From positions 1 to 27,033 of the IMG/VR virus record IMGVR_UViG_3300033153_003294: DNA of 27,033 bases. One strand, written 5' to 3'. The translations under genes were made by a program, and so were the position numbers. The notes below the pieces were generated by a model. It saw nothing but the letters and a program-made list of their open reading frames with translations, had not been told where the DNA came from and did no database searches. This stretch comes from a virus. Shown in pieces: positions 4,723 to 27,033 of the stretch (position 1 is the first letter of the stretch; every line of letters starts with the position of its first letter).

Positions 4723-4738
4723 TTATTGACTATCTAAG

Positions 4739-4766
4739 CGGTCAGTTAGTTCTGGCCGTTTTTTTT
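4739..4766 (+). terminator. Rho-independent terminator after capsid genes
   Basis: CGGTCAG (4739-4745) pairs with CTGGCCG (4752-4758), seven pairs with one G-T wobble, around the loop TTAGTT, followed at once by eight T (4759-4766). The next gene starts only 17 bases after the T-run, so this is an internal terminator or a partial attenuator in the structural operon. Confidence 0.88.
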
Positions 4767-5031: not shown

Positions 5032-6333
5032 ATGGGTATTTTTTCATTTTTTTCCAACAAGAAGAAGTATAAAGAGAGTCAACCGCAGAATACAACTAAG
5101 TTGTATACTCAAACTGGTGGAACACTTATTTATGCTGATAGTGCCATGCAAGTTTCTGCGTTTTATCGTGGGGTTATTTATATTTCAACTCAACTTGCAA
5201 AATTGCCTTTCAACGTAAAAGATTCAAAAAATAATATCATGGATAATCACAGAATACAGAAGCTATTAAGAACAGCTCCGAATCCTGAGATGAATACATT
5301 CATGTTTAGATTGGTTATGAATCAATCAGCTCTTATCTATGGTAATGGTTATGCAGAAATCGAAAGAGATAATGCTGGTAGGATCATTGCTTTATGGCCT
5401 ATATCAACTAACCATATATACACAATGAGAGATGCAAACAACACACTGATTTATAGAATTGTTGGTGGTGGAATCGGTGGAACTGGAGATGCTTTTTTAA
5501 GAAAAGAAGATGTGTTTCATTTAAGAAATTTTCACACCAAAGATGGCATAACTGGATTAGGCTTAATTGATTATGCTTCAGAAGCTTTAGGGATTTCTAA
5601 AGGTGCTGATAAATTTGCTAATGCTTTATTTTCTAATGGTGGTTTACCAGCAGGAGTATTAACTGTTGATGGCAAACTATCACCAGAGGCATTAACGAGA
5701 ATAAAAGAATCATGGGAAGCTGCGCACTCAGGACGCAAAGTTGGAGGAACAGCAATATTAGAAGAAGGGTTAACATATTCTTCAATTTCACATGATCCAC
5801 AAGTTCTACAATTTTTAGAATCAAGAAAATTTTCTGTTTTAGAAATTGCTAGATTTTTAGGTTTACCACCTACTAAATTATTTGACACTGAAGCAGCAAC
5901 ATTTAATAATATTGAAAATGCCAACCTTGAAGTGGCAACTGATACATTAGATGCATGGGCCAGAAATTGGGAATGTGAAGCTGATGTTAAACTATTAAAA
6001 AATAGTTTGAATGGAATTAAAGCAGAAATTGATCTTCAAGCCGTATTCAGAGGCGACATGAAAACAAGATCTGAATATTTTGGTAAAATGATGCAAGTTG
6101 GAGCAATGACTCCTAACGAAATTAGAGAATCAGAGGGGAAATCTCCTTATGAAAGTGGTGATAGATATTATATTGCCACAAATAATTACACACCAGCAGA
6201 TAGAGTTGATGAAGTTGTAGATTCCCAAATAAAAGGGAAAGACAAAAGCAATGAAGATGATAAAGATAAAAAAGAAATTGAAACTGCTTTAAACAAAACA
6301 ACTATTGAATATTTGCAAAGAAGCATGAGCTAA
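5032..6333 (+). CDS. Portal protein, HK97 family
   Basis: The 433-residue product forms the dodecameric ring through which DNA enters and leaves the head. HK97-portal features are the basic N-terminus with FSFFSNKKK, the ADSAMQVSAFYRGVIYIS segment near residue 40, the LPFNV strand, and MNQSALIYGNGYAEIERD followed by ALWPIS. Further on are the clip/crown portion with GLPAGVL, and EIARFLGLPPTKLFD in the stem-to-wing region. The C-terminal 45 residues are highly charged and probably disordered. It begins three bases after the small upstream gene. Its place downstream of protease and capsid genes is the reverse of the common portal-protease-capsid order. Confidence 0.94.
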   Translation: MGIFSFFSNKKKYKESQPQNTTKLYTQTGGTLIYADSAMQVSAFYRGVIYISTQLAKLPFNVKDSKNNIMDNHRIQKLLRTAPNPEMNTFMFRLVMNQSALIYGNGYAEIERDNAGRIIALWPISTNHIYTMRDANNTLIYRIVGGGIGGTGDAFLRKEDVFHLRNFHTKDGITGLGLIDYASEALGISKGADKFANALFSNGGLPAGVLTVDGKLSPEALTRIKESWEAAHSGRKVGGTAILEEGLTYSSISHDPQVLQFLESRKFSVLEIARFLGLPPTKLFDTEAATFNNIENANLEVATDTLDAWARNWECEADVKLLKNSLNGIKAEIDLQAVFRGDMKTRSEYFGKMMQVGAMTPNEIRESEGKSPYESGDRYYIATNNYTPADRVDEVVDSQIKGKDKSNEDDKDKKEIETALNKTTIEYLQRSMS

Positions 6334-6365: not shown

Positions 6366-8321
6366 ATGGATAAGCTAACAATTCTGGCTGTAGTAGATGC
6401 AGTCGTTAATGAACACATAAATAATGGCTCTCTTAAAGGTTTAAGAGGTCAACGTGGCCAAAAGGGAAAGCCTGGTCAAGATTTTGATTTTTCTGAAAAT
6501 GAAATTGAAATTCTTAGTGCAATCTCAAATGCTGTATCCAATAATTCCGAAAAATTCAAATTAAAATTTTCTGATTTAACTGATGATGAGAAAGATTTTT
6601 TAAAATTAAAATTTGAAAATCTAACCTTAAAGCAAATTGAATCACTTAAAGGTGAAACTGGTAAGCATGGAAGAAATTTTCTTTTTTCTGATCATAAAGA
6701 TAGAATTTTCTCTAAAATAGAATCATTTGTTTCAGGAATAAAAGAAGATTTTAAACTAAGATTTTCAGATTTAACTGAAGATGAAAAAAAAGATTTAAAA
6801 GGTTTAGACGGTAAGCCTGGCAAAGATTTTTCCTATGAAGAAAATAAAGAATTAATTTATAATGATTTAAATAATATCGTATCTGATAAATCCGAAAAAT
6901 TAAAATTAAAATTTTCTGATTTAACTGAAGATGAAAAAGAAGGATTAAAAGGATCCAAAGGATCTAGAGGTCAACGTGGAAAGCCAGGTCAAAATTTTGA
7001 CTATGAAGAAAGCCATAAATCAATTTTAAATGATTTATCAAATATTGTTGAAGAAAAAACTGAATCATTTAAACTTAAATTTTCTGATTTAAGTGATGAA
7101 GAAAAAGAAGATTTAAAATTAAAATTTTCAGATTTATCTTCAGAAGAAACCTTAGAATTAAAAGGCGATAAAGGTGCGAGAGGTCAACGTGGAAAACAGG
7201 GTTTTCAAGGAGATCAAGGAGAAATTGGCTTAACTGGAAAAACTGGAGAAAAAGGTGATAGAGGACTTAGAGGCTCTATTGGCTTACAAGGTTTAGCTGG
7301 GCCTAATGGATTAAAAGGTGAAAGAGGCAGTGATGGAGAAGATGCTCCAATTGTTGTTGATATAGAAATTGAGCAAAAATCAAAAGAATATTTTAGTTTT
7401 GTTTTTTATTTTTCAAATGGTAAATCAATTGAAACAGATCAAATAAAAATACCATCAATAAGCATGATCTATCAGAGTTTTTCATCGGGTGGTGGATCAG
7501 GCGGTGGTGGTTTAGGTGCGCTTTTAATTAAGCAAGATGGAGTAGATATTGGAGAAGCACAAAAGCTGAATTTTGTTAATTCAATAGTTGAAGTTGACGG
7601 CACTGATCCTACTCAAATTAATGTAACACCAAATGAAGCTTGTATAGCTGTTGAAGAAGAAGATGCCGAAATACTTGGATGTGCAGATAGATTAAATTTT
7701 ATAAATGCAACTGTTGAAGTTGATGATATTGATCCAAAAAAAGTAAATATAGAAATTGATAATGGGAATTGTGTTGCGATTGAAGATGAAGGGTTAACAA
7801 TTACAGACTGTGCTAAGAAAATTAATTTCATTGGCGATAATGTTTTTGTTGTTCCAGAAGTTTCGATTGCTGATTGGCCAACACTTTCTGATGTAGACAA
7901 TATGGCAACGTATGGTGGTGATACTGGAACTGTTGAAGTTCATGTCACTGGCGATGCACAAAAGTTGAGCCGCATATTTGTTGCTGGTGAAAATATTTTT
8001 GTTAACGATATAATTAGATTAGGTTCCGATCAAAAAGCTTTCAAGGCTACAAATAATGGCACTTATGAAGATGCTCAAGCCATCGGGATAGCGATTGAAG
8101 ATGGAGTAGTTGATAGTAATGTTTCGGTGTTACTTTTTGGTGTTTATGAAAATGGAGCATTGGCTTTTAGTTTGAATAATCCATTCTTTCTTGGAGTTAA
8201 TGGAGTAATGACACAAAACCCTCCTGCTGATGTTGGAGAATTTGTTGTCGAGTTAGGGCAATCGTTAGGAACTGGTGCTGTTTTTATGGATGTTAAAAGA
8301 CCTATGGAGATTGTATCGTGA
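6366..8321 (+). CDS. Collagen-like fibre protein with modular repeats
   Basis: A 651-residue fibre protein, probably a homotrimer. Collagen-type Gly-X-Y runs begin at residues 25 (5 triplets), 96 (3), 146 (3), 196 (5) and 267 (20 triplets, to Gly324). Between the short runs lie charged helical segments containing LKFSDLTEDEK-type motifs (Ser69, Ser134, Ser184, Ser240, Ser255). A Gly/Ser hinge (374-384) leads to three related beta units (about 386-420, 426-464, 469-495) with KLNFVN-x-x-VEVD cores; two carry C-x12-C pairs (Cys426/439, Cys469/482). The end (about 535-651) is a beta domain shared with the next gene and the gene at 9271. TAGG precedes the ATG by five bases. Position between portal and connector genes suggests a head or neck fibre, an inference. 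Confidence 0.85.
   Translation: MDKLTILAVVDAVVNEHINNGSLKGLRGQRGQKGKPGQDFDFSENEIEILSAISNAVSNNSEKFKLKFSDLTDDEKDFLKLKFENLTLKQIESLKGETGKHGRNFLFSDHKDRIFSKIESFVSGIKEDFKLRFSDLTEDEKKDLKGLDGKPGKDFSYEENKELIYNDLNNIVSDKSEKLKLKFSDLTEDEKEGLKGSKGSRGQRGKPGQNFDYEESHKSILNDLSNIVEEKTESFKLKFSDLSDEEKEDLKLKFSDLSSEETLELKGDKGARGQRGKQGFQGDQGEIGLTGKTGEKGDRGLRGSIGLQGLAGPNGLKGERGSDGEDAPIVVDIEIEQKSKEYFSFVFYFSNGKSIETDQIKIPSISMIYQSFSSGGGSGGGGLGALLIKQDGVDIGEAQKLNFVNSIVEVDGTDPTQINVTPNEACIAVEEEDAEILGCADRLNFINATVEVDDIDPKKVNIEIDNGNCVAIEDEGLTITDCAKKINFIGDNVFVVPEVSIADWPTLSDVDNMATYGGDTGTVEVHVTGDAQKLSRIFVAGENIFVNDIIRLGSDQKAFKATNNGTYEDAQAIGIAIEDGVVDSNVSVLLFGVYENGALAFSLNNPFFLGVNGVMTQNPPADVGEFVVELGQSLGTGAVFMDVKRPMEIVS
6444..7192 (+). 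repeat. Nucleotide direct repeats in collagen-like gene
   Basis: AGAGGTCAACGTGG occurs identically three times (6444-6457, 6966-6979, 7179-7192), each at the start of a Gly-X-Y run. A longer near-identical repeat is seen at 6546-6594 and 6892-6940, with diverged copies near 6750 and 7064. The repeats code for the FSDLTEDEK-type helical motif. Near-identity at DNA level suggests recent module duplication or maintenance by recombination, so copy number may vary between relatives. Confidence 0.8.
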
Positions 8322-8755
8322 CATATAAATTAGTAGGTAGAAAGATAATAGGAGGCCAAGAGGTTTTAGTTGATCCTATTAAAACTGGTGGTGCCAATGC
8401 GGTCATTGCTGGTGTTTCTTGCCAATCTTCTGTTTTTGTTGGAGCTGCTGTTTACATGACTTCTGGTGGTGTTGCTACTAATGCGATTGCCACAAGCTTA
8501 ACCGAGTCAAATGTTATCGGGATAGTGGAAGCCAAGGCAACTTTAAATGAATGTACAATAAGAGTATCAGGAACAACAGAATCAATTTATTCAAGCCTTG
8601 ACGTTACAAAAGAATATTTTCTAAGTGACTCAGTAGCAGGAGAAATGATTACAATTATTCCAACGGCATCGGGCCATATCGTACTCAGATTAGGGCAGCC
8701 TTATTCTGAAGAACAACTATTATTTATGAAAGGCAACAGGGTGGTGAGAGCATGA
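8318..8755 (+). CDS. Single-domain fibre-type structural protein
   Basis: A 145-residue all-beta protein that consists of the same kind of domain as the C-terminus of the collagen-like fibre just upstream. Shared features are a metal- and signal-free strand pattern VFVGAAVYMTSGGVATNA, then NVIGIVEAK, the YFLSDSVAGEMI turn, and a final IVLRLGQPYSEEQLLF strand pair. It begins at a GTG (8318) overlapping the previous stop codon; TGGAGA at 8305-8310 supports this start. It may cap or cross-link the larger fibre, or be a free decoration protein; this is inference from domain sharing and adjacency. No transmembrane segment is seen. Confidence 0.7.
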   Translation: MTYKLVGRKIIGGQEVLVDPIKTGGANAVIAGVSCQSSVFVGAAVYMTSGGVATNAIATSLTESNVIGIVEAKATLNECTIRVSGTTESIYSSLDVTKEYFLSDSVAGEMITIIPTASGHIVLRLGQPYSEEQLLFMKGNRVVRA

Positions 8756-8952
8756 TTGAAACTATGGATATTTTTTATGCAGCTTTCTTATTAAAGAAAA
8801 TTGAACTACATAAAGTAGAAAAGACAAGTGGACATAAGGTTAAATATATTTTTAAAGCTGAAGATGATTTAGTGTTGAAATCAGAATATCTTGCCAGTGA
8901 ATATTATTCAATGAAACAAGAGATAGAAAAACTTAAAATACTAGGAAAATGA
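8752..8952 (+). CDS. Small hypothetical protein in fibre cassette
   Basis: A 66-residue protein overlapping the stop of the previous gene (ATGA) and ending one base before the next start, so it is translationally coupled on both sides. The N-terminal part holds a hydrophobic stretch (IFYAAFLLKKI, too short and interrupted for a confident membrane segment), the centre a beta-like VKYIFKAEDDLVLK, and the end a helix (EYYSMKQEIEKLKIL). The family is not recognised. Position between fibre genes would suit a small assembly factor, but nothing in the sequence proves it. Confidence 0.6.
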   Translation: MIETMDIFYAAFLLKKIELHKVEKTSGHKVKYIFKAEDDLVLKSEYLASEYYSMKQEIEKLKILGK

Positions 8953-8953
8953 A

Positions 8954-9274
8954 ATGAAAAAAATAGCTAAAGTAGTTAAGAAAAAAACAAAAAAAACCGT
9001 TAAAGAGGAAGTACCTTATTTAAGTGAAGCAGAAATGTTGAAAATTGAACTTCATAACGAAAGGGTTAGAAATTTAGAGCAATCTATAAAAATTAAAAAC
9101 TATGAAATAGAAGTTTCTCGGTTAATGGTGGAAAGAAATATCATAAATATGTTAAAAGAACTTGAAATAGTGAAGCTCAAAAGAACGAAATTTAATGAAG
9201 AAATAAGAAATAAATTCAACATTGAATCAGAAAAATTTGGATATGATCCAATTTCTGGGGAGCTTAAATTATGA
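8954..9274 (+). CDS. Coiled-coil hypothetical protein in fibre cassette
   Basis: A 106-residue protein: a very basic N-terminus (KKIAKVVKKKTKK), then an almost continuous heptad-rich helix from about residue 22 to 90 (LSEAEMLKIEL onward), and a short end FGYDPISGELKL. The general plan, a helix ending in a YDPxSGEL-type tail, recurs in small phage proteins of unknown function. AGGAAA precedes the ATG, and the stop overlaps the next start (ATGA). The N-terminal basic patch could contact nucleic acid or the acidic fibre proteins; the role is unknown. Confidence 0.6.
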   Translation: MKKIAKVVKKKTKKTVKEEVPYLSEAEMLKIELHNERVRNLEQSIKIKNYEIEVSRLMVERNIINMLKELEIVKLKRTKFNEEIRNKFNIESEKFGYDPISGELKL

Positions 9275-10635
9275 GTGAAAAATTTTTAATCGTTGGTGCC
9301 AACGGTGAGTATGAAGAAAAGACAGGTTACAATACTAGCGAATACACTTCTGCTGGTGGTGCTGGTAATGAAAATAAACCAGTAGTATTAGATGCTAGTG
9401 GTTTAATTGATTCTAGCATGATTGATGAAAGCGGTTATGACCATGACAATTTAGCTGGTGTTGCTGATTCAGTTGCGCATACTAAATTTTCATTGTTAGA
9501 TGGAACTAGAGATTATTCTGCAATTGTGAAGTATTCTTCACATCCTACGTTTACAGAAGACGCTCAAATTATTGATAAAAAATACGTTGATGATTTAGCA
9601 CTTGGTTATGACTGGCTTCAGTCAGTATTAACAAGGTTAGCTACACCTCCAGGTACTCCTGCTACAGGTGCACGTTATATGATTATAGCAACTGCAACTG
9701 GTGACTGGGCTGGAAAAGAAGACCAGATTGCTGAGTATGACGGTGCTGCGTGGGTTTATACGACTCCTGGTGCTGGTAATACAATCATAGTTGAAGATGT
9801 TCCAGGATCTCAATTTACTTATGATGGTGCAAACTGGATTGAGCAAAATTTTGAAAGTACAACTGTTGGAGATGGACTTCAGATTGCAGGAAATGAAATT
9901 TCTGTTGATCCTACTTTAGCTGGAGCTGGACTTGGTTATGCTGCTGGTATTATGAACGTAAATGTTGATGATTCTAGTGTTGAGATTGACACTGATACTC
10001 TTAGAGTAAAAGCTTTAGGAATCACTAACGGAATGTTAGCAGGATCAATTTCTGATGATAAATTAGTTGAAGATTATATTAAGACTTCTGAAGTTGACGA
10101 TGTATCTATTGAGTTTAATGCAAGTACACTTAACATAAAAGACGATGGAGTAAATGCTCTTAAAATTGATTGGGGCCTTGGAGCTAATCAAGTTAGTGCT
10201 GGAGATTTACCAATCGCAGATTCAGGAAACCATACTGCTGAAACTGATGTTGAAGGATCGTTGCAAGAATTATACGGACTTGTTGGAGAGCGTGGTGTTA
10301 CTGCTGTAAGTTCTGGCGTTTCAAAAGGTGATTTACTTTATGTAGATGGATCTAATTCTCTAGGTGTTTATTCAACAATAACAACTTTTCATAAAGCTGT
10401 TGGCCTTGCAAATGTTACTGCTGCAAACGGTGTTGATGTTAAATCATTAAGTAATGATACTGTATTGGCTGGAGTTTTAAGTTCAGCTACTCCTGGTGAC
10501 GTTTACTATTGGGATGGAACTAATCATGTTTCAACTATGCCTTCAACGGCTTCTAGTTATGTTATTCAAACTGGAGTTGCTTTAAGTGCAACAGATTTAT
10601 ATGTAGAAGTACGAGCAATTAAGAAAAATATTTAA
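9271..10635 (+). CDS. Fibre protein with DUF2793-like domain
   Basis: A 454-residue structural protein. After an N-terminal segment typical of tail or head fibres (KPVVLDASGLIDSSMI and ADSVAHTKFSLLDG), residues about 110-192 match the DUF2793 pattern. That pattern is a PPGTPATGARYMI core, a GDWAGKEDQIAEYDGAAW stretch, and a closing YDGANWIE. A beta-rich shaft follows, with repeated I-x-x-G-M-L-x-GSI-type phrases. NHTAETDVEGSLQELYG then leads to a C-terminal domain (about 340-454) of the same kind as in the genes at 6366 and 8318. GGGGAG at 9257-9262 supports the start. It is followed by a strong terminator, as are the capsid and tail-tube genes, which hints at high expression. The attachment site on the virion is not known. 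Confidence 0.78.
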   Translation: MSEKFLIVGANGEYEEKTGYNTSEYTSAGGAGNENKPVVLDASGLIDSSMIDESGYDHDNLAGVADSVAHTKFSLLDGTRDYSAIVKYSSHPTFTEDAQIIDKKYVDDLALGYDWLQSVLTRLATPPGTPATGARYMIIATATGDWAGKEDQIAEYDGAAWVYTTPGAGNTIIVEDVPGSQFTYDGANWIEQNFESTTVGDGLQIAGNEISVDPTLAGAGLGYAAGIMNVNVDDSSVEIDTDTLRVKALGITNGMLAGSISDDKLVEDYIKTSEVDDVSIEFNASTLNIKDDGVNALKIDWGLGANQVSAGDLPIADSGNHTAETDVEGSLQELYGLVGERGVTAVSSGVSKGDLLYVDGSNSLGVYSTITTFHKAVGLANVTAANGVDVKSLSNDTVLAGVLSSATPGDVYYWDGTNHVSTMPSTASSYVIQTGVALSATDLYVEVRAIKKNI

Positions 10636-10644
10636 TAATTAACT

Positions 10645-10674
10645 GAGAGGGTTTCGGCCCTCTCTCTTTTTTTT
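10645..10674 (+). terminator. Rho-independent terminator in fibre cassette
   Basis: GAGAGGG (10645-10651) and CCCTCTC (10658-10664) form a perfect seven-pair stem with loop TTTCGG; after TC comes a run of eight T (10667-10674). The next start codon is 13 bases after the run, so downstream genes need read-through, antitermination or a promoter inside the upstream gene. Confidence 0.88.
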
Positions 10675-10686
10675 AGGGAAAAAGCA

Positions 10687-10968
10687 ATGGGAAGAAATCC
10701 AAAATTTGCAGTACTAGAAATAGATGGAGATGAACTTGGAGGCCCTAGTGAATATATTCCTGAAGCAGAAGATATTAAATGGATTGCGTCAAGCAGCGAA
10801 ACACTTAAAGAGCATATAGATAATTTAGAAGTAGGAGAATCAGATCCTTATTTGTACGGAGTTTTAGATCGAGATATAACCATACCTAGTGACAAAGCAT
10901 TGATTATGGTTAATCCTAGATTAAAGAATTATACAATAAAAATAAAAGGTACATGGAGAATTGAATGA
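10687..10968 (+). CDS. Small fibre-like hypothetical protein
   Basis: A 93-residue protein beginning 13 bases after a terminator with an AGGGA ribosome site. Residues about 30-48 (IKWIASSSETLKEHIDNL) resemble the trimerisation helix phrase seen at domain borders in phage fibres. The last third (DITIPSDKALIMVNPRLKN, then IKIKGTWRIE) resembles the beta turn unit in which fibre proteins state a default value and a plotted strand pair. It could be a short fibre adaptor or a separated piece of a larger fibre. The stop overlaps the next start (ATGA), so it is coupled to the jelly-roll-like protein downstream. Function is inferred only from this resemblance. Confidence 0.62.
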   Translation: MGRNPKFAVLEIDGDELGGPSEYIPEAEDIKWIASSSETLKEHIDNLEVGESDPYLYGVLDRDITIPSDKALIMVNPRLKNYTIKIKGTWRIE

Positions 10969-11480
10969 GTATAGCAACTTACGACAACAGAACAACACAT
11001 CCCAATGCTCCCGATGCAGGAGAGATCAGCAGATATTTCCTTGCTGGAGTTCCTTACTATATGAAAGAAGATGGAATACCAGTTGCTATTGGTGTTAGTG
11101 TATTTGGTCAGAATTTTGGAATGATTGAAAGGACTGATCCTATCACTAATTCTACTTCTGAATATGTTACTTATTTGACTCTTAATCGAACTAATTGCCA
11201 AGTTGGTAAATATAGAATTGGTATGCAAATGACATGGAGAATGAATACTACTTCATATAATTTTATAGGTGCTTTATTTGTTGATGGAGTGGAAAAGAAA
11301 ATGTTTGAAATGGAATCAAAAGATTCTGGTAGTGATATTAGAAATCACAATAGTGCTTTTATGTACTGCGATGTTGAAATAGTAGGAGATAGAGTGATTG
11401 AACTAAAATTTATGTCTGAAAATTCCAGCTATGTAGCTACTTGCTATGGAGCTACATTAGAAGCATGGAGGGTATTGTAA
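10965..11480 (+). CDS. Jelly-roll-like fibre tip or binding protein
   Basis: A 171-residue beta-rich protein. The pattern GKYRIGMQMTWRMNTTSYNF, then IGALFVDGVEKK, a KDSGSD turn, and VEIVGDRVIELKFMSEN up to ATLEAWRVL resembles the TNF/C1q-type jelly-roll head found in phage receptor-binding and fibre proteins. In these proteins a strand-Trp-strand core is followed by a vertebrate-lectin-like ending in LExWRV. It is a small stand-alone unit coupled by ATGA to the 93-residue protein upstream; the two together could form an adaptor-plus-head pair. TGGAGAA precedes the ATG. A carbohydrate or protein ligand is plausible but not shown. Confidence 0.65.
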   Translation: MSIATYDNRTTHPNAPDAGEISRYFLAGVPYYMKEDGIPVAIGVSVFGQNFGMIERTDPITNSTSEYVTYLTLNRTNCQVGKYRIGMQMTWRMNTTSYNFIGALFVDGVEKKMFEMESKDSGSDIRNHNSAFMYCDVEIVGDRVIELKFMSENSSYVATCYGATLEAWRVL

Positions 11481-12001
11481 TGAATTATAATTACACAATG
11501 GCAACTACGGTCACACCAGTAGTTTTTGAAAATTATATAAATAAAAAGAAAGTAGAACTACATATAGATGGTGCAATAATAAATGGACTAAGTATAACTG
11601 TAGCCACAATTCAAGATTTAACACCTACTGAGCAAACAGCATTATATGATTATGTTATGGCATATACAGATTTTGACTTAAGCATAGTTAACTGCGACAT
11701 ATTAGAACAGGCCAAGAAATTTTCCAATGATCTAATGCACGAATACAGTGTAATGAATATGCAAAAAAAACATGAAGGATTATTAACTTCTATAGATCTG
11801 TATAATCAATTAAAAGAATTATCTGATGCGTATATAATGCAAGCTTTAATGTCAGGATCTTTGGAAGTAGTTTTAATGATGATTGATGGAGTGATAATAG
11901 ATGGTAATGTGTTAGTACCTAAGTTTATTCCCAACCATGTTCCTCAAGAGGATGTTGATATGATTAAATCTAGGATACTAGAATTTGTATCGAGCTTGTA
12001 A
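11480..12001 (+). CDS. Unrecognised helical protein of fibre cassette
   Basis: A 173-residue protein, read from the ATG at 11480 because GGAGGG (11467-11472) is seven bases upstream and the ATG overlaps the previous stop (TAATG); a longer in-frame start at 11441 lacks such support. The N-terminal third is beta-like (VELHIDGAIINGLSITV) and the rest helical, with AKKFSNDLMHEYSVMN, then LYNQLKELSDAYIMQALMSG and SLEVVLMMIDG. Proteins with a similar F-x-N-D-L-M-x-E-Y-x-V-x-N and TGSL-x-x-A/V pattern occur in structural regions of other phages, without known function to me. No catalytic motif is seen. Confidence 0.6.
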   Translation: MNYNYTMATTVTPVVFENYINKKKVELHIDGAIINGLSITVATIQDLTPTEQTALYDYVMAYTDFDLSIVNCDILEQAKKFSNDLMHEYSVMNMQKKHEGLLTSIDLYNQLKELSDAYIMQALMSGSLEVVLMMIDGVIIDGNVLVPKFIPNHVPQEDVDMIKSRILEFVSSL

Positions 12002-12002
12002 G

Positions 12003-12503
12003 ATGAAATTAACAACACTTTTTTCTAACCCTAAAAAAAGAACTTTTACTAATTATGGTATAAAGAAAGTATTAAAAACAAAATATGGCCATGTTGCCAC
12101 TCTAATAAAAGATAGCAGAACAGATCAGCTAATGGTATTTGAAGCAAGTCATGGAGAAGCGCATTTTATTAATTATGGCGATTGGCTTAAGCGTAATGAT
12201 ATAGTTATGCAATATGATAAAAATATAACTGATGAAGAATACAAAGATATAGTTTTTACTTTGAATCTATTACCACAAAGAGGATATGACTTTAAATCTA
12301 TTGCTGGAATATTAGTTGCCTTTGCTTTTGATTTAGATAGAAATATATTTGGAACAGGTAGAGATAAGATGTTTTGCTCAGAGCAAGTTGGTTTATTATT
12401 TTCCAAATGGTATAAAATAGAAAAGCCTTTGGATTTATTTAACCCAAAAGACTTGGAGCAATTAATTAAAAATAATATAGAAGATTTTATTAGAATAAGA
12501 TAA
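12003..12503 (+). CDS. Permuted papain-like cysteine hydrolase
   Basis: A 166-residue protein from the ATG at 12003 (a TTG at 11985 is open in frame but less likely). It has the order of motifs of circularly permuted NlpC/P60 (YiiX/LRAT-like) enzymes: His first, in YGHVATLIKD (His30), an acidic residue in VFEASHG (Glu47), and the nucleophile late, in KMFCSEQVG (Cys125). YGDWLKRND and GYDFKSIAGI are typical spacer elements. Such enzymes cut amide or ester bonds in peptidoglycan peptides or lipids; the real substrate is unknown. No signal peptide. Its location, between the fibre cassette and the connector gene, suggests a virion-associated or assembly hydrolase separate from the normal NlpC/P60 at 19639. 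Confidence 0.72.
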   Translation: MKLTTLFSNPKKRTFTNYGIKKVLKTKYGHVATLIKDSRTDQLMVFEASHGEAHFINYGDWLKRNDIVMQYDKNITDEEYKDIVFTLNLLPQRGYDFKSIAGILVAFAFDLDRNIFGTGRDKMFCSEQVGLLFSKWYKIEKPLDLFNPKDLEQLIKNNIEDFIRIR

Positions 12504-12513
12504 AGAGGTAGAT

Positions 12514-13200
12514 ATGTTAGTTTCACTTGCAGATATGAAAACTTATTTAGACATCACAAATGATGATTACAATGATTTCTTAACTTCACAAATTACAATA
12601 GTCAGTGATGCCATCGAGGGATATTGTGGAAGAAAAATTCTTTCAGCAGCCTATGTTCAAACATTTTATGGCCATGACTATAAAGATGATTTAAGTGCAA
12701 AAAAACTTTTAACTTATCATTATCCGATTCAATCTATTGGATCAATTAAAGAAATTGAGAAATTAAATGATGGATCTGAAAACGAAACAGCATTAACAAT
12801 AGATGAATTTTTACTTAACACAAGTAATGGAATGATTTTTAAAACAGAAATAAATGGAATTAGAAAATATTGGTTTACAGAGTATGGGTATAATTCAAGA
12901 GTTGTTATTCAATATACAGCAGGATTTAATTCTACTCCTCCAGTAATTGAGGATGTTGTTTATGCTCTTGTATCAGAAAGATATAGTAAAAAAATAAATG
13001 GCATGGATGTTAATTTTGGAAGCGATGTTCAAAGAGTTTCTATCCCTGGTGTTATGTCAATTGACTTTGATTACACTCTCCAAGCTAATGAAAGAAAAGC
13101 TCAATTTGGAATGATAATCGGTAACTATGCAAACGTGCTAGATGCTTATAAAAGTGAACGAAAAGTAATAGGCGAAATACGAGAAAATTATGTCGAATAA
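12514..13200 (+). CDS. Head-tail connector, gp6-like family
   Basis: A 228-residue protein that should form a ring beneath the portal. The N-terminal helical pair (LADMKTYLDITNDDYNDFLTSQI then VSDAIEGYCGRK) is the hallmark of gp6/gp15-type connectors, followed by a beta region (YHYPIQSIGSIKEI, VVIQYTAGF) and a C-terminal helical arm. It is longer than the usual connectors of about 100-190 residues, the extra length lying in the central beta section and C-terminus. AGAGG precedes the ATG. It opens the neck gene block that continues without gaps to 14765. Confidence 0.85.
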   Translation: MLVSLADMKTYLDITNDDYNDFLTSQITIVSDAIEGYCGRKILSAAYVQTFYGHDYKDDLSAKKLLTYHYPIQSIGSIKEIEKLNDGSENETALTIDEFLLNTSNGMIFKTEINGIRKYWFTEYGYNSRVVIQYTAGFNSTPPVIEDVVYALVSERYSKKINGMDVNFGSDVQRVSIPGVMSIDFDYTLQANERKAQFGMIIGNYANVLDAYKSERKVIGEIRENYVE

Positions 13201-15984: not shown

Positions 15985-16015
15985 AAGCTCTACTTGAAAA
16001 AGTAGAGCTTTTTTT
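15985..16015 (+). terminator. Strong terminator after tail tube gene
   Basis: AAGCTCTACTT (15985-15995) and AAGTAGAGCTT (16000-16010) form a perfect eleven-pair stem closed by the GAAA tetraloop; T-run 16009-16015. The next gene starts 34 bases later at 16049. Confidence 0.93.
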
Positions 16016-24283: not shown

Positions 24284-24913
24284 TTGAAAGAAATTTGGAA
24301 AGATATTGCTGGTTATGAAAATGAGTATGCTATAAGCAATTATGGTAAGGTATTTTCTAAAAGAAGCAATATAAATCTAAAGCCACAAAAAATGACTAGT
24401 GGGTATTTATTCAATATTCTTTATAATAAAAATAAAAAAGTTTTTTCTCTCCATAGACTAGTTGCGAAAAGCTTTATTTCCAATAGCTTTAATAAGCCTC
24501 AAGTTAATCACATTGATGGCAATAGAAAAAATAATTTTGTTGGTAATTTGGAATGGGTTAATCAGTCAGAAAATGAAATGAATAAATACATTAGACAGCC
24601 AGAATTAAGAAAATTGTCAAAAGAAGATATTTTTAATATTATTGAATTATATAACAACAATGTTGCCACCAAAGAAATAACTGCTAAATACAATATAGAT
24701 AGAAATTTGTTTTGTGGAATATTAAACGGCAAATATTATGCAGATATTAAAAGAAATACAATCATGCCAAAAAGAAAAGATTTAATAAAAAAAGAAGAAA
24801 TATCTTTAATTTTAAAACATAGAAAAGATGGGAAATCCTATAGCAATATTGCCAAGGCAGTTGGTAGAGGTAAAACATCAATAGCAAGAATAATTAAAAA
24901 ATATAACTTATAG
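24284..24913 (+). CDS. HNH endonuclease with NUMOD4, homing type
   Basis: A 209-residue enzyme likely to be a free-standing homing endonuclease. Residues 2-45 carry NUMOD4 (EIWKDIAGYENEYAISNYGKV), then the HNH core: HRLVAKSF (His57), VNHIDGN (Asn75, His76, Asp78) and NNFVGNLEWV (Asn88). Residues about 111-150 (LSKEDIFNII onward) and 168-205 (YSNIAKAVGRGKTSI) form two helix-turn-helix DNA-binding units. Translation appears to begin at TTG 24284, with AGAGG (24274-24278) just ahead, eight bases after the stop of the tail tip gene. It is richer in Lys and Asn codons (AAA, AAT) than its neighbours, as expected for an inserted mobile gene. No intron boundary is seen, so it is not inside an intron. 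Confidence 0.9.
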   Translation: MKEIWKDIAGYENEYAISNYGKVFSKRSNINLKPQKMTSGYLFNILYNKNKKVFSLHRLVAKSFISNSFNKPQVNHIDGNRKNNFVGNLEWVNQSENEMNKYIRQPELRKLSKEDIFNIIELYNNNVATKEITAKYNIDRNLFCGILNGKYYADIKRNTIMPKRKDLIKKEEISLILKHRKDGKSYSNIAKAVGRGKTSIARIIKKYNL

Positions 24914-24921
24914 GAGTAAAC

Positions 24922-27033
24922 ATGGCAGGGAATATTTTTGACTCTATAAATCCCCTCACTACATCGGGAACACAATTAGCTACAATTTTAAACGATTTCA
25001 AAGATGCAGTGGCATCGGGTTTTTCAACAAGTGATGGTAATAGACCAGCGAATTTAAATGCTGGTGGATACTGGGTGGATATGCAAAACGATCCTATTTG
25101 GGTTTTTAGTATTTATGATGGAGCTGAAGATACTGTTCTTTTTGAAATTAATTCTACTACTAACTCAATTAGTTTTGGAACGACAGGCGACAAGCTTGAT
25201 ATTCAAAAGTCAAGTGATGACGCTTTAGGAGCTGCTTTAAATCTTTTAAAAAGGCGAGCAACTGGAGCTGGACAAACTCTTGATGGAGACACTATTGGAG
25301 AAGTAAACTTTGTAGGTTTCACTGATGCAACTGTTGAAGAAATAATGGCAAAAATTGAAGTTGTTGCAACTGACAATGTTACTGGATCAGAGCATGGATC
25401 AGAGCTTTCAATTTCTACAACTGCTGATGCTGGAGCTACACTAACAGAAAGAGTTAGAATCAAAGGCGATGGTAAAGTTGGATTTGGAACAAATGTTCCA
25501 GATGAAGTTGTTCATGTTGAAGGGAATATTAAATCAACATTAGTTGAAAATTCGGCAACAGGCCCTAAAAATATTTTAAATAAAAAAAGAACTACTGGAA
25601 GTGGTCAGGTTTTAAATGCTGATGAAATTGGATCTAGTAAATTTACTGGAACCGATGAAGCTGGTGCTGAAATTGATATGGGATTAATCCAAGTTAAAGC
25701 AACTGAAGATTCACAGTCAACTCAGCATGGATCAGAAGTTTCTATACAAACAGTTAAGACAGGCGAGACAGCTTTAGCAGATAGAATTAAAGTTGATGGC
25801 TTAGGAGATACAGACATTTCTGGAAACTTGGATGTGCAGGGAACTGGAACTTCTACTATCGCTGGTGACTTAGAGGTTACAGGAGATGTTAGTTTTTCTG
25901 GAACTTCTGATGTCACTATTCCTGGTAACTTAAATGTTGATGGTGTTGGAGAGTCAAGCTTTGATGGTAACTTAACTGTTGCTGGAGATTTGACTATTAA
26001 TGGGACAACAACAACTGTTAATACTGACACTTTAGATGTTGAAGATGCAAACGTAACAATAAATAAAAATGGAACTGAAGCAACTGCTGATGCTCAGGAT
26101 GCTGGTATAACTGTTGAAATGAGTGATGCGACTAATGCACAAGTTGGATATGATTCAACTACGACAAGTAAATTTAAAGCTGGAGAAGTTGGAAGTGAAA
26201 GTGAAATAGCTACACTTGCTCATGTTCAAACTTTAACAAATAAAACTTTAACAAGTCCAGATATAAATGGTGGAACAGTTGATGGAGCTACCTTAACAGG
26301 AAACTCAAATGTTGATCCTACTAGAATGGACGTTAAAAAAGATTCAACGGTTAACCTGGAAACCTACGCTGCAACAGCAACAGAAGGCCAGATAGTTTAT
26401 TCAGATGATGAAAAGAAATATTTTGGTATTGCTGAAAATGAATTAAAAGGGATGGGAGGAGGAGTTGGATCTCCAAGTCTTTATCAATTTATTGATGCTG
26501 ATGATATTGCAGTTTCTAAATTTGATACAACTGGATTAACAAATGTAACAGTTGTTGTTGATACAGTAACTTTTTTAAGTGGTAAAAAATCTTTTAAAGT
26601 AACTCAAGTTGCTGGTGGTGTAGGAGAGAAATTTTTCTTACCACAAAAAACTTTACCTAAAAGAGCAAGAGATGCACAAACTAGTTTGTTTAGATTTGTA
26701 CATAACTATGATGGCGACACAGGCGACTATAGGTGGTTTCCTTATGATGTTACAAATGATGAAGAAATAAAAGCAGAATTATTCATAGATAAAAATAAAA
26801 CAAAACAAGGTTTGATATTTGACATACCAGCTACTTGTTTAATCGTAGCAATGGGATGTGAATGTATGGTAGAAAACACCAGCTCAACATTTCATTTTGA
26901 TGATACTGAATTGGATGATAAGCCTTTTGGTGAAGCTTGCTTGCAGGAAGAAAATGTGTTTGGATTTAAAGTTGATTCTGCTGGAAGCATAGACGAAACT
27001 AAAGAATATATCCAGTCAGTGGTGCGCAATTCA
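24922..27033 (+). CDS. Tail fibre protein, C-terminus beyond window
   Basis: The frame is open from the ATG at 24922 (TAGGAG upstream) to the window end: 704 codons, no stop. The N-terminus (NIFDSINPLTTSGTQLATIL, then ILNDFKDAVASGF) looks like an attachment region. Two related beta units begin at residues about 110 (RRATGAGQTLDGDTIGEV) and 221 (KRTTGSGQVLNADEIGSS), each with HGSE and a DRIKVDG or ERVRIKGDG end. Residues about 299-380 are short G-N/D-L-x-V repeats, leading to INGTTTTVNTDTLDVEDANV, and TLTNKTLTSPDING follows near 437; these are known phage fibre phrases that form a shaft. From about 510 a new domain (LYQFIDADDIAV...) begins, with a Cys-rich section (TCLIV, CECMV, EACLQ). Confidence 0.88.
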   Translation, partial: MAGNIFDSINPLTTSGTQLATILNDFKDAVASGFSTSDGNRPANLNAGGYWVDMQNDPIWVFSIYDGAEDTVLFEINSTTNSISFGTTGDKLDIQKSSDDALGAALNLLKRRATGAGQTLDGDTIGEVNFVGFTDATVEEIMAKIEVVATDNVTGSEHGSELSISTTADAGATLTERVRIKGDGKVGFGTNVPDEVVHVEGNIKSTLVENSATGPKNILNKKRTTGSGQVLNADEIGSSKFTGTDEAGAEIDMGLIQVKATEDSQSTQHGSEVSIQTVKTGETALADRIKVDGLGDTDISGNLDVQGTGTSTIAGDLEVTGDVSFSGTSDVTIPGNLNVDGVGESSFDGNLTVAGDLTINGTTTTVNTDTLDVEDANVTINKNGTEATADAQDAGITVEMSDATNAQVGYDSTTTSKFKAGEVGSESEIATLAHVQTLTNKTLTSPDINGGTVDGATLTGNSNVDPTRMDVKKDSTVNLETYAATATEGQIVYSDDEKKYFGIAENELKGMGGGVGSPSLYQFIDADDIAVSKFDTTGLTNVTVVVDTVTFLSGKKSFKVTQVAGGVGEKFFLPQKTLPKRARDAQTSLFRFVHNYDGDTGDYRWFPYDVTNDEEIKAELFIDKNKTKQGLIFDIPATCLIVAMGCECMVENTSSTFHFDDTELDDKPFGEACLQEENVFGFKVDSAGSIDETKEYIQSVVRNS

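Follow-up and report, generated by a model that had tools for sequence, protein, structure and literature searches.

What does a tailed phage encode between its portal and its head-tail adaptor when about six kilobases separate the two genes? The question is raised by a 27-kb contig of an uncultivated tailed phage (IMG/VR record IMGVR_UViG_3300033153_003294, positions 1-27,033), which was analysed over its whole length and is called the window hereafter. It carries a siphophage structural module with every gene on the plus strand. A preliminary description of this DNA had placed a cassette of eight fibre-type genes between portal and connector and proposed that it serves head- or neck-mounted appendages. 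Both borders are confirmed by profile matches (Table 1). The gap of 6,180 bp is filled by nine same-strand open reading frames (ORFs; F1 to F9, positions 6366-12503), whose ends mostly overlap or nearly touch; the count rises from eight to nine with the 66-residue F3, which has homologues. In our judgement the cassette probably encodes an additional virion fibre, likely mounted on the neck, which is a collagen-stalked relative of the bead-chain neck fibre of cyanophage A-1(L). For comparison, relatives (L-numbered loci) were collected via the portal, and those with a portal identity of at least about 46% are referred to as the clade. An ORF follows the portal in 37 clade loci, some of them near-duplicates, and these were usable.

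The Anabaena myophage A-1(L) has five neck fibres, each measuring about 100 nm and built from gp82, about 14 gp81 trimers and a gp80 tip; gp82N sits on the neck ring gp5 and gp82C forms the first bead (PMC10966104). The gp81 trimers are joined head-to-tail via N-terminal hairpins, gp82, gp81 and gp80 self-assemble, and gp80 did not bind the host of A-1(L) (PMC10966104).

The relationship to this fibre is carried by a domain of about 140 residues, the F2 type, which recurs as the C-terminus of F1 and in one or two genes of its own. A profile of 15 such beads had a single match in the PDB, gp82 of the A-1(L) neck fibre (E = 6.5e-13). The window F1 C-terminus, a gp82C-like bead at residues ~510-651, also gave gp82 (8keg) as its only credible PDB match when searched alone (E = 3e-6), and gp82 scores it at 29.8 bits, compared with at most 6.8 bits in 500 shuffles. 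Within a set of 27 proteins, a four-sequence profile of F1 C-termini matched gp82 at 2.5e-13, and a profile of F2-type beads only (type C) matched gp81-type beads at ~1e-6. In the same set the F5 profile matched gp32 of Flavobacterium phage 11b at 2.9e-15 and A-1(L) gp81 at 5.2e-10. Phylogenetically, the window F2 falls in a clade-specific bead type (support 100/99), and gp81-type beads proper are found in four clade members (L010, L019, L027 and L097), beside the beads of A-1(L), KPP25 and 11b. The F1 bead of the window is closest to gp82C by sequence, its deep placement in the tree being weak. Pfam and PHROGs contained almost no matches for the window copy of F2; its AlphaFold2 model (predicted local distance difference test, pLDDT, 86) shows a hairpin with strands 7-11/14-18.

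F1 belongs with the collagen-like phage fibres, scoring 44.3 bits for Pfam Collagen (PF01391) against a cut-off of 27.2. Its N-terminus is a hydrophobic segment of ~20 residues (clade form MxxxxLLALIxxxV) which is common to all aligned members, and collagen of the RGPRG type is present in nearly all of them. In the middle part, collagen triplets alternate with LKFSDLT-type repeats, and residues 267-326 form a run of 20 triplets; a conserved domain reads DGxDAPxIxDI...FSDGxxIETN. The C-terminus is a bead in about half of the aligned members and is absent in several. A constant base with a variable end, as predicted for F1 across the clade, is a common design among fibres. At one further locus (L129:3899-5159) the portal is split between two overlapping frames, by frameshift or assembly error, and a collagen protein of 578 residues comes next.

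Beyond F1 and F2, F5 combines an N-terminal docking segment common to gp81-type beads with a DUF2793 domain (PF10983; residues 122-189, E = 4.3e-14, 52.6 bits against a cut-off of 27) and a C-terminus which aligns to the bead profile (hhalign, 92%, E = 5e-7). A tip of the gp80 type was sought among F3-F9, and none of them matched A-1(L) gp80.

From these parts a fibre can be assembled on paper. F1 would form a trimeric stalk of collagen and coil, which its conserved N-terminal segment would fix to the virion; the neck between portal and adaptor is the most probable site. The C-terminal bead of F1 would take up F2 via the N-terminal hairpin of F2, and F5, which begins with a docking segment of this kind, would extend the fibre outwards by DUF2793 and one more bead. 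F6-F8 may be tip or accessory parts, and F9 may act on peptide or amide bonds of the envelope or process the fibre. Such a fibre would touch the host or surface glycans reversibly before the tail tip of J and the distal fibre engages; its tip genes, together with the hydrolase, are swapped between phages.

Apart from homology with A-1(L) and the position between portal and adaptor, mounting on the neck is favoured by a second fibre system. The preliminary description had noted a separate distal fibre gene at 24922, and such a gene indeed comes after J in the window, as it does in each of the seven relatives whose sequence was read beyond J. In the genome of L002 (L106:657-3771) this homologue is split into two ORFs; it is a single long gene in L003, L004 and L008. 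There is also a positional precedent. The Alteromonas siphophage R7M bears visible whiskers at the head-tail junction, and its ORF28, encoded directly upstream of the head-completion adaptor, makes up the second-highest share of the virion proteome and is proposed by the authors as the whisker protein (PMC8265664). ORF28 and the beads gave no homology.

Several findings weigh against a neck-mounted fibre. F1 has no domain resembling the neck-binding gp82N, its residues 1-380 giving a negative score against gp82, and thus does not owe its anchor site to the A-1(L) precedent. Furthermore, the neck-fibre genes of A-1(L) themselves lie far from its head genes (PMC10966104), and gene position is therefore no proof of mounting. 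Beads homologous to those of the window accompany tail genes elsewhere: Acidovorax AP1 carries them in its tail region and in MMDA13 a bead is fused to a tail protein, so that the bead kit can be mounted at more than one place. DUF2793 also occurs in the tail fibre of RcGTA (PMC8265664). Lastly, the best PDB folds for F2 alone are weak and belong to capsid decoration proteins. Of the earlier proposal of a head or neck appendage, the independent fibre system, the homology with gp82 and gp81 and the R7M precedent stand, and the missing gp82N and the tail-associated beads count against it.

The beads of AP1 and MMDA13 and the DUF2793 of RcGTA would be expected of ordinary tail-tip side fibres whose genes are placed away from the tail genes, and ectopic encoding of fibre genes is possible. 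We nevertheless regard tail-tip fibres as unlikely: each relative read past J has its own fibre directly after J, and the cassette is fixed between portal and adaptor in 37/37 loci, with tail genes recombining separately.

A related question is whether an old association anchors the collagen stalk on the portal ring itself. In outgroups with the order TerL-portal-protease-MCP (MCP, major capsid protein; L048, L050, L079/L114, L115, L122-L125), a collagen-like gene directly follows, and often overlaps, the portal gene; the L050 protein ends in a segment resembling a helix-turn-helix (HTH). In two loci (L059:1685-3772 and L091:3251-4948) collagen is fused in frame to the C-terminus of the portal. 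The L059 fusion matches Pfam portal (about 2e-92) and Collagen (1e-26) and has an HTH-like end (HTH_23, 0.0014, below cut-off). The portal C-terminus is usually directed into the head, which makes such a fusion topologically odd. We hold portal anchoring to be doubtful, and equally doubtful its corollary that the portal vertex would serve time and again as a platform for triple helices of collagen, with four trimers formed from twelve subunits. The C-terminal tail of another portal (L075:1375-2946; LAALIPEV..RGPRGQRGPRG..TDGAVIEE) resembles a miniature F1 (LLALI...RGPRG...SDG.IET).

Still somewhat less probable is a fibre which decorates the capsid surface instead of the neck, as gp12 of SPP1 and gp8.5 of phi29 do (PMC7602432). 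The fold of the bead resembles cement and decoration proteins (T1, Pam3, TW1, YSD1 and lambda gpD, all with E at least 0.03), two of the 15 bead members match Pfam Phage_cement_2 (best 1.7e-4), and there is a weak match to the head decoration family phrog_122 (0.077). However, the homologue singled out by sequence is no capsid binder but a bead of a neck fibre, distal on its anchor, and the genes lie at the portal and adaptor and not beside that of the MCP. Most BFVD matches lie in large fibre-like proteins, as their C-terminal domains. These sequence-profile and BFVD results led us to demote the reading of F2 as a decoration protein of the capsid.

A neck-borne fibre remains the reading that we favour, and the cassette is a stable trait of the clade. 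The window order is terS, TerL, ClpP-type protease, MCP, two small genes (g5 and g6), portal, cassette and adaptor, and the clade keeps the order protease-MCP-g5-g6-portal-cassette-adaptor. Since the outgroups keep TerL-portal-protease-MCP, the portal itself was relocated downstream of the MCP in the clade. The cassette is a constant part of this rearranged order and not a one-off insertion; the earlier statement that it interrupts the usual order is half right, as it does split portal from adaptor but within a head module which is permuted as a whole. A collagen-type F1 gene lies directly after the portal in 37/37 clade loci. Complete portal-adaptor intervals (n = 19) measure 2.25-6.65 kb with 2-8 genes, and the smallest cassette, that of L029, holds F1, a bead protein and an F4-type protein only. 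Variation lies in the distal part, the proximal part being conserved. Gain or loss of the block as a unit, which the preliminary description had suggested examining by genome comparison, was not what the comparison gave: the cassette is never lost, its distal half is exchanged and the stalk stays.

No isolate relative was found, the best portal identity among cultured phages being 34%. tblastn with F2 alone returned no matches, and a scan with the F1 alignment failed because F1 offers no conserved stretch. The sole host clue for the clade comes from L097, on a 16-kb all-phage contig within a metagenome-assembled genome of Candidatus Dependentiae, which is possibly mis-binned.

The exchange can be followed in closely related loci. 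L003 and L005, which come from different metagenomes, are about 65-75% identical in their heads and then about 97-100% identical; the switch lies inside a 160-residue docking gene (L008 coordinate about 9822), and the high identity continues to the end of the L005 sequence. L006 and L008 switch likewise with respect to L003, with high identity up to the adaptor start (about 12460), beyond which L006 falls to 60-78% against L008 and L003. Three relatives hence have in common a near-identical block of about 2.6 kb, comprising tip and hydrolase, between flanks of only 60-78% identity. To judge from this pattern, the tip genes and the hydrolase moved as one block and the base stayed. An assembly artefact was considered and rejected for the left junction, which is backed by contigs from different metagenomes; the right-hand junction is seen in L006 alone, which may be a chimera. 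An exchangeable tip fits a role in adhesion. That the interval is only a cargo slot, a hotspot of assorted fibre-like genes without joint function, is very improbable: its content varies between 2 and 9 genes, distal genes often have no detectable homologues and blocks are exchanged, but F1 is present in every member, the genes overlap tightly, and the beads, docking segments and gene order are found repeatedly and agree with a fibre known to self-assemble.

The hydrolase of the window, F9, is the last gene before the adaptor in several relatives. Its AlphaFold2 model (pLDDT 81) matches PDB 3kw0 (E = 1.5e-6) and YiiX (2if6, E = 7.7e-5), and His36, Tyr101 and Cys131 (numbered from TTG 11985) are invariant in nine homologues. 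With 18 bits for Pfam C92, under the cut-off of 27, it is a remote member of that family at best. On its predicted fold, F9 is a permuted papain-like hydrolase of the YiiX/C92-like kind.

Among the gene types listed earlier, the collagen fibre F1, the DUF2793 fibre F5 and the hydrolase F9 were borne out; the coiled coil, F4, is probable from sequence alone. The jelly-roll was not recovered: F6, F7 and F8 exceed the cut-off of no Pfam family, and the PDB holds no credible sequence match for F7. For F7, a jelly-roll or other known fold was set aside, since its PDB matches were at chance level only. F6 is a probable small component of the fibre tip.

Downstream of the adaptor (12514) follow neck genes, a major-tail-type protein, chaperones, the tape measure, J, an HNH gene and the distal fibre. 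A search for homology between the window adaptor and a solved adaptor gave no match. The HNH endonuclease gene (24284-24913) sits between J and the distal fibre, and its homologues lie between terS and TerL in L002, L003 and L005-L008; we read them as mobile HNH genes shifting within the module. Besides the terminator between F5 and F6, the structural operon of the window contains strong intrinsic terminators at 4736-4761 and 15985-16010. Many relatives have terminators downstream of g5 and the major tail protein, and their recurrence suggests a stepwise lowering of expression behind abundant proteins.

Table 1. Features of the portal-adaptor interval and its surroundings in the window
Feature	Position	Strand	Evidence or remark
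Portal, left cassette border	5032..6333	+	phrog_12, E 1e-102; 46-69% identity across 14 clade relatives
F1, 651 aa, fibre stalk (putative)	6366..8321	+	Pfam Collagen 1.6e-11; clade alignment; collagen runs; bead match to A-1(L) gp82
F2, 145 aa, stand-alone bead of clade-specific type, predicted N-terminal β-hairpin	8318..8755	+	AlphaFold2 model, profile, tree
F3, 66 aa	8752..8952	+	Seven homologues by hidden Markov model; directly after bead gene in several relatives
F4, 106 aa, Lys/Glu-rich	8954..9274	+	Six homologues; adjoins adaptor in L029
F5, 454 aa, docking segment, DUF2793 and bead-like C-terminus; probable distal fibre or tip	9271..10635	+	Pfam, profiles, hhalign
Intrinsic terminator between F5 and F6, strong	10645..10664	+	8-bp stem, T-tract; window only, among loci scanned
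F6, 93 aa	10687..10968	+	No family match in Pfam or PHROGs; sequence only
F7, 171 aa	10965..11480	+	One homologue, in L016 cassette
F8, 173 aa, ATG 11480 (listed as TTG 11441)	11480..12001	+	GGAGGG upstream of new start
F9, 166 aa, ATG 12003 (better start than TTG 11985)	12003..12503	+	AlphaFold2 fold match, invariant residues
Head-tail adaptor, right cassette border	12514..13200	+	phrog_442, E 3.7e-19
Distal fibre gene, outside cassette, open at contig end	24922..27033	+	Homologue after J in 7/7 clade records with sequence read beyond J

Few neck fibres have been solved, and they rank among the phage parts that are least understood. The present analysis places the bead-chain kit, with a collagen stalk, at a fixed locus throughout one uncultivated siphophage clade, and also in cultured phages of Pseudomonas, Acidovorax, Flavobacterium and roseobacters, within their fibre operons. 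In KPP25 (Pseudomonas), Acidovorax AP1 and ACP17, an anchor ending in short collagen and a bead precedes a gp81-type bead and tip proteins, and bead and tip are also carried by DSS3phi2, FoX4 and 11b. ORF086, ORF083 and ORF082 of KPP25 are annotated structural proteins, and clade member L097 has the KPP25 gene order, including a 70-residue PLVI protein. Phage 11b has its bead and a fibre gene amid the connector genes. The bead profile, together with the docking hairpin, provides a sequence handle for finding such fibres, and the predictions which follow are self-assembly of F1, F2 and F5, mounting on the neck, and host contact via a swappable tip.

Comparison with known systems places the window between several precedents. 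With the KPP25, AP1, ACP17 and 11b operons it shares the anchor of collagen plus bead (KPP25 ORF086, AP1, ACP17), and these have a gp81-type bead and tips of the PLVL..DG..ELP type; unlike the window, they lie mostly elsewhere in the genome and have short collagen stretches and no long stalk. R7M ORF28 resembles the cassette in gene position and is not homologous to it, being a PKD/Ig-like protein of 1154 residues without bead or collagen. SPP1 gp12, a collagen-like protein on capsid hexamers, and phi29 gp8.5, which forms head fibres (PMC7602432), are likewise collagen-like or coiled-coil trimeric head appendages which are thought to help host contact, but they are single small proteins on the capsid shell. 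Fibres of the RcGTA type attach to the tail hub (megatron) by an N-terminal DUF2793; that of F5 lies internally, behind an N-terminal segment of the bead-docking type. F9 shares with the YiiX/C92 permuted papain-like hydrolases (3kw0, 2if6) the fold and the permuted His...Cys order, and differs in a third (acidic) position which varies among homologues and in an identity of about 15%. The closest system is that of A-1(L), gp82-gp81-gp80 (PDB 8KEG): the F1 C-terminus corresponds to gp82C, F2 and F5 are related to gp81-type beads, the anchor-bead-tip gene order recurs, and F5 has a docking segment and F2 a predicted hairpin at the N-terminus. The window differs in its siphophage-type tail, in the placement of the genes between portal and adaptor, in an additional DUF2793 protein and hydrolase, in having no gp81-type bead proper, and in a variable tip, F5-F8, in place of gp80. 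The bead-chain neck fibre itself is already known from A-1(L); what appears to be new is a collagen and coil stalk in place of gp82N.

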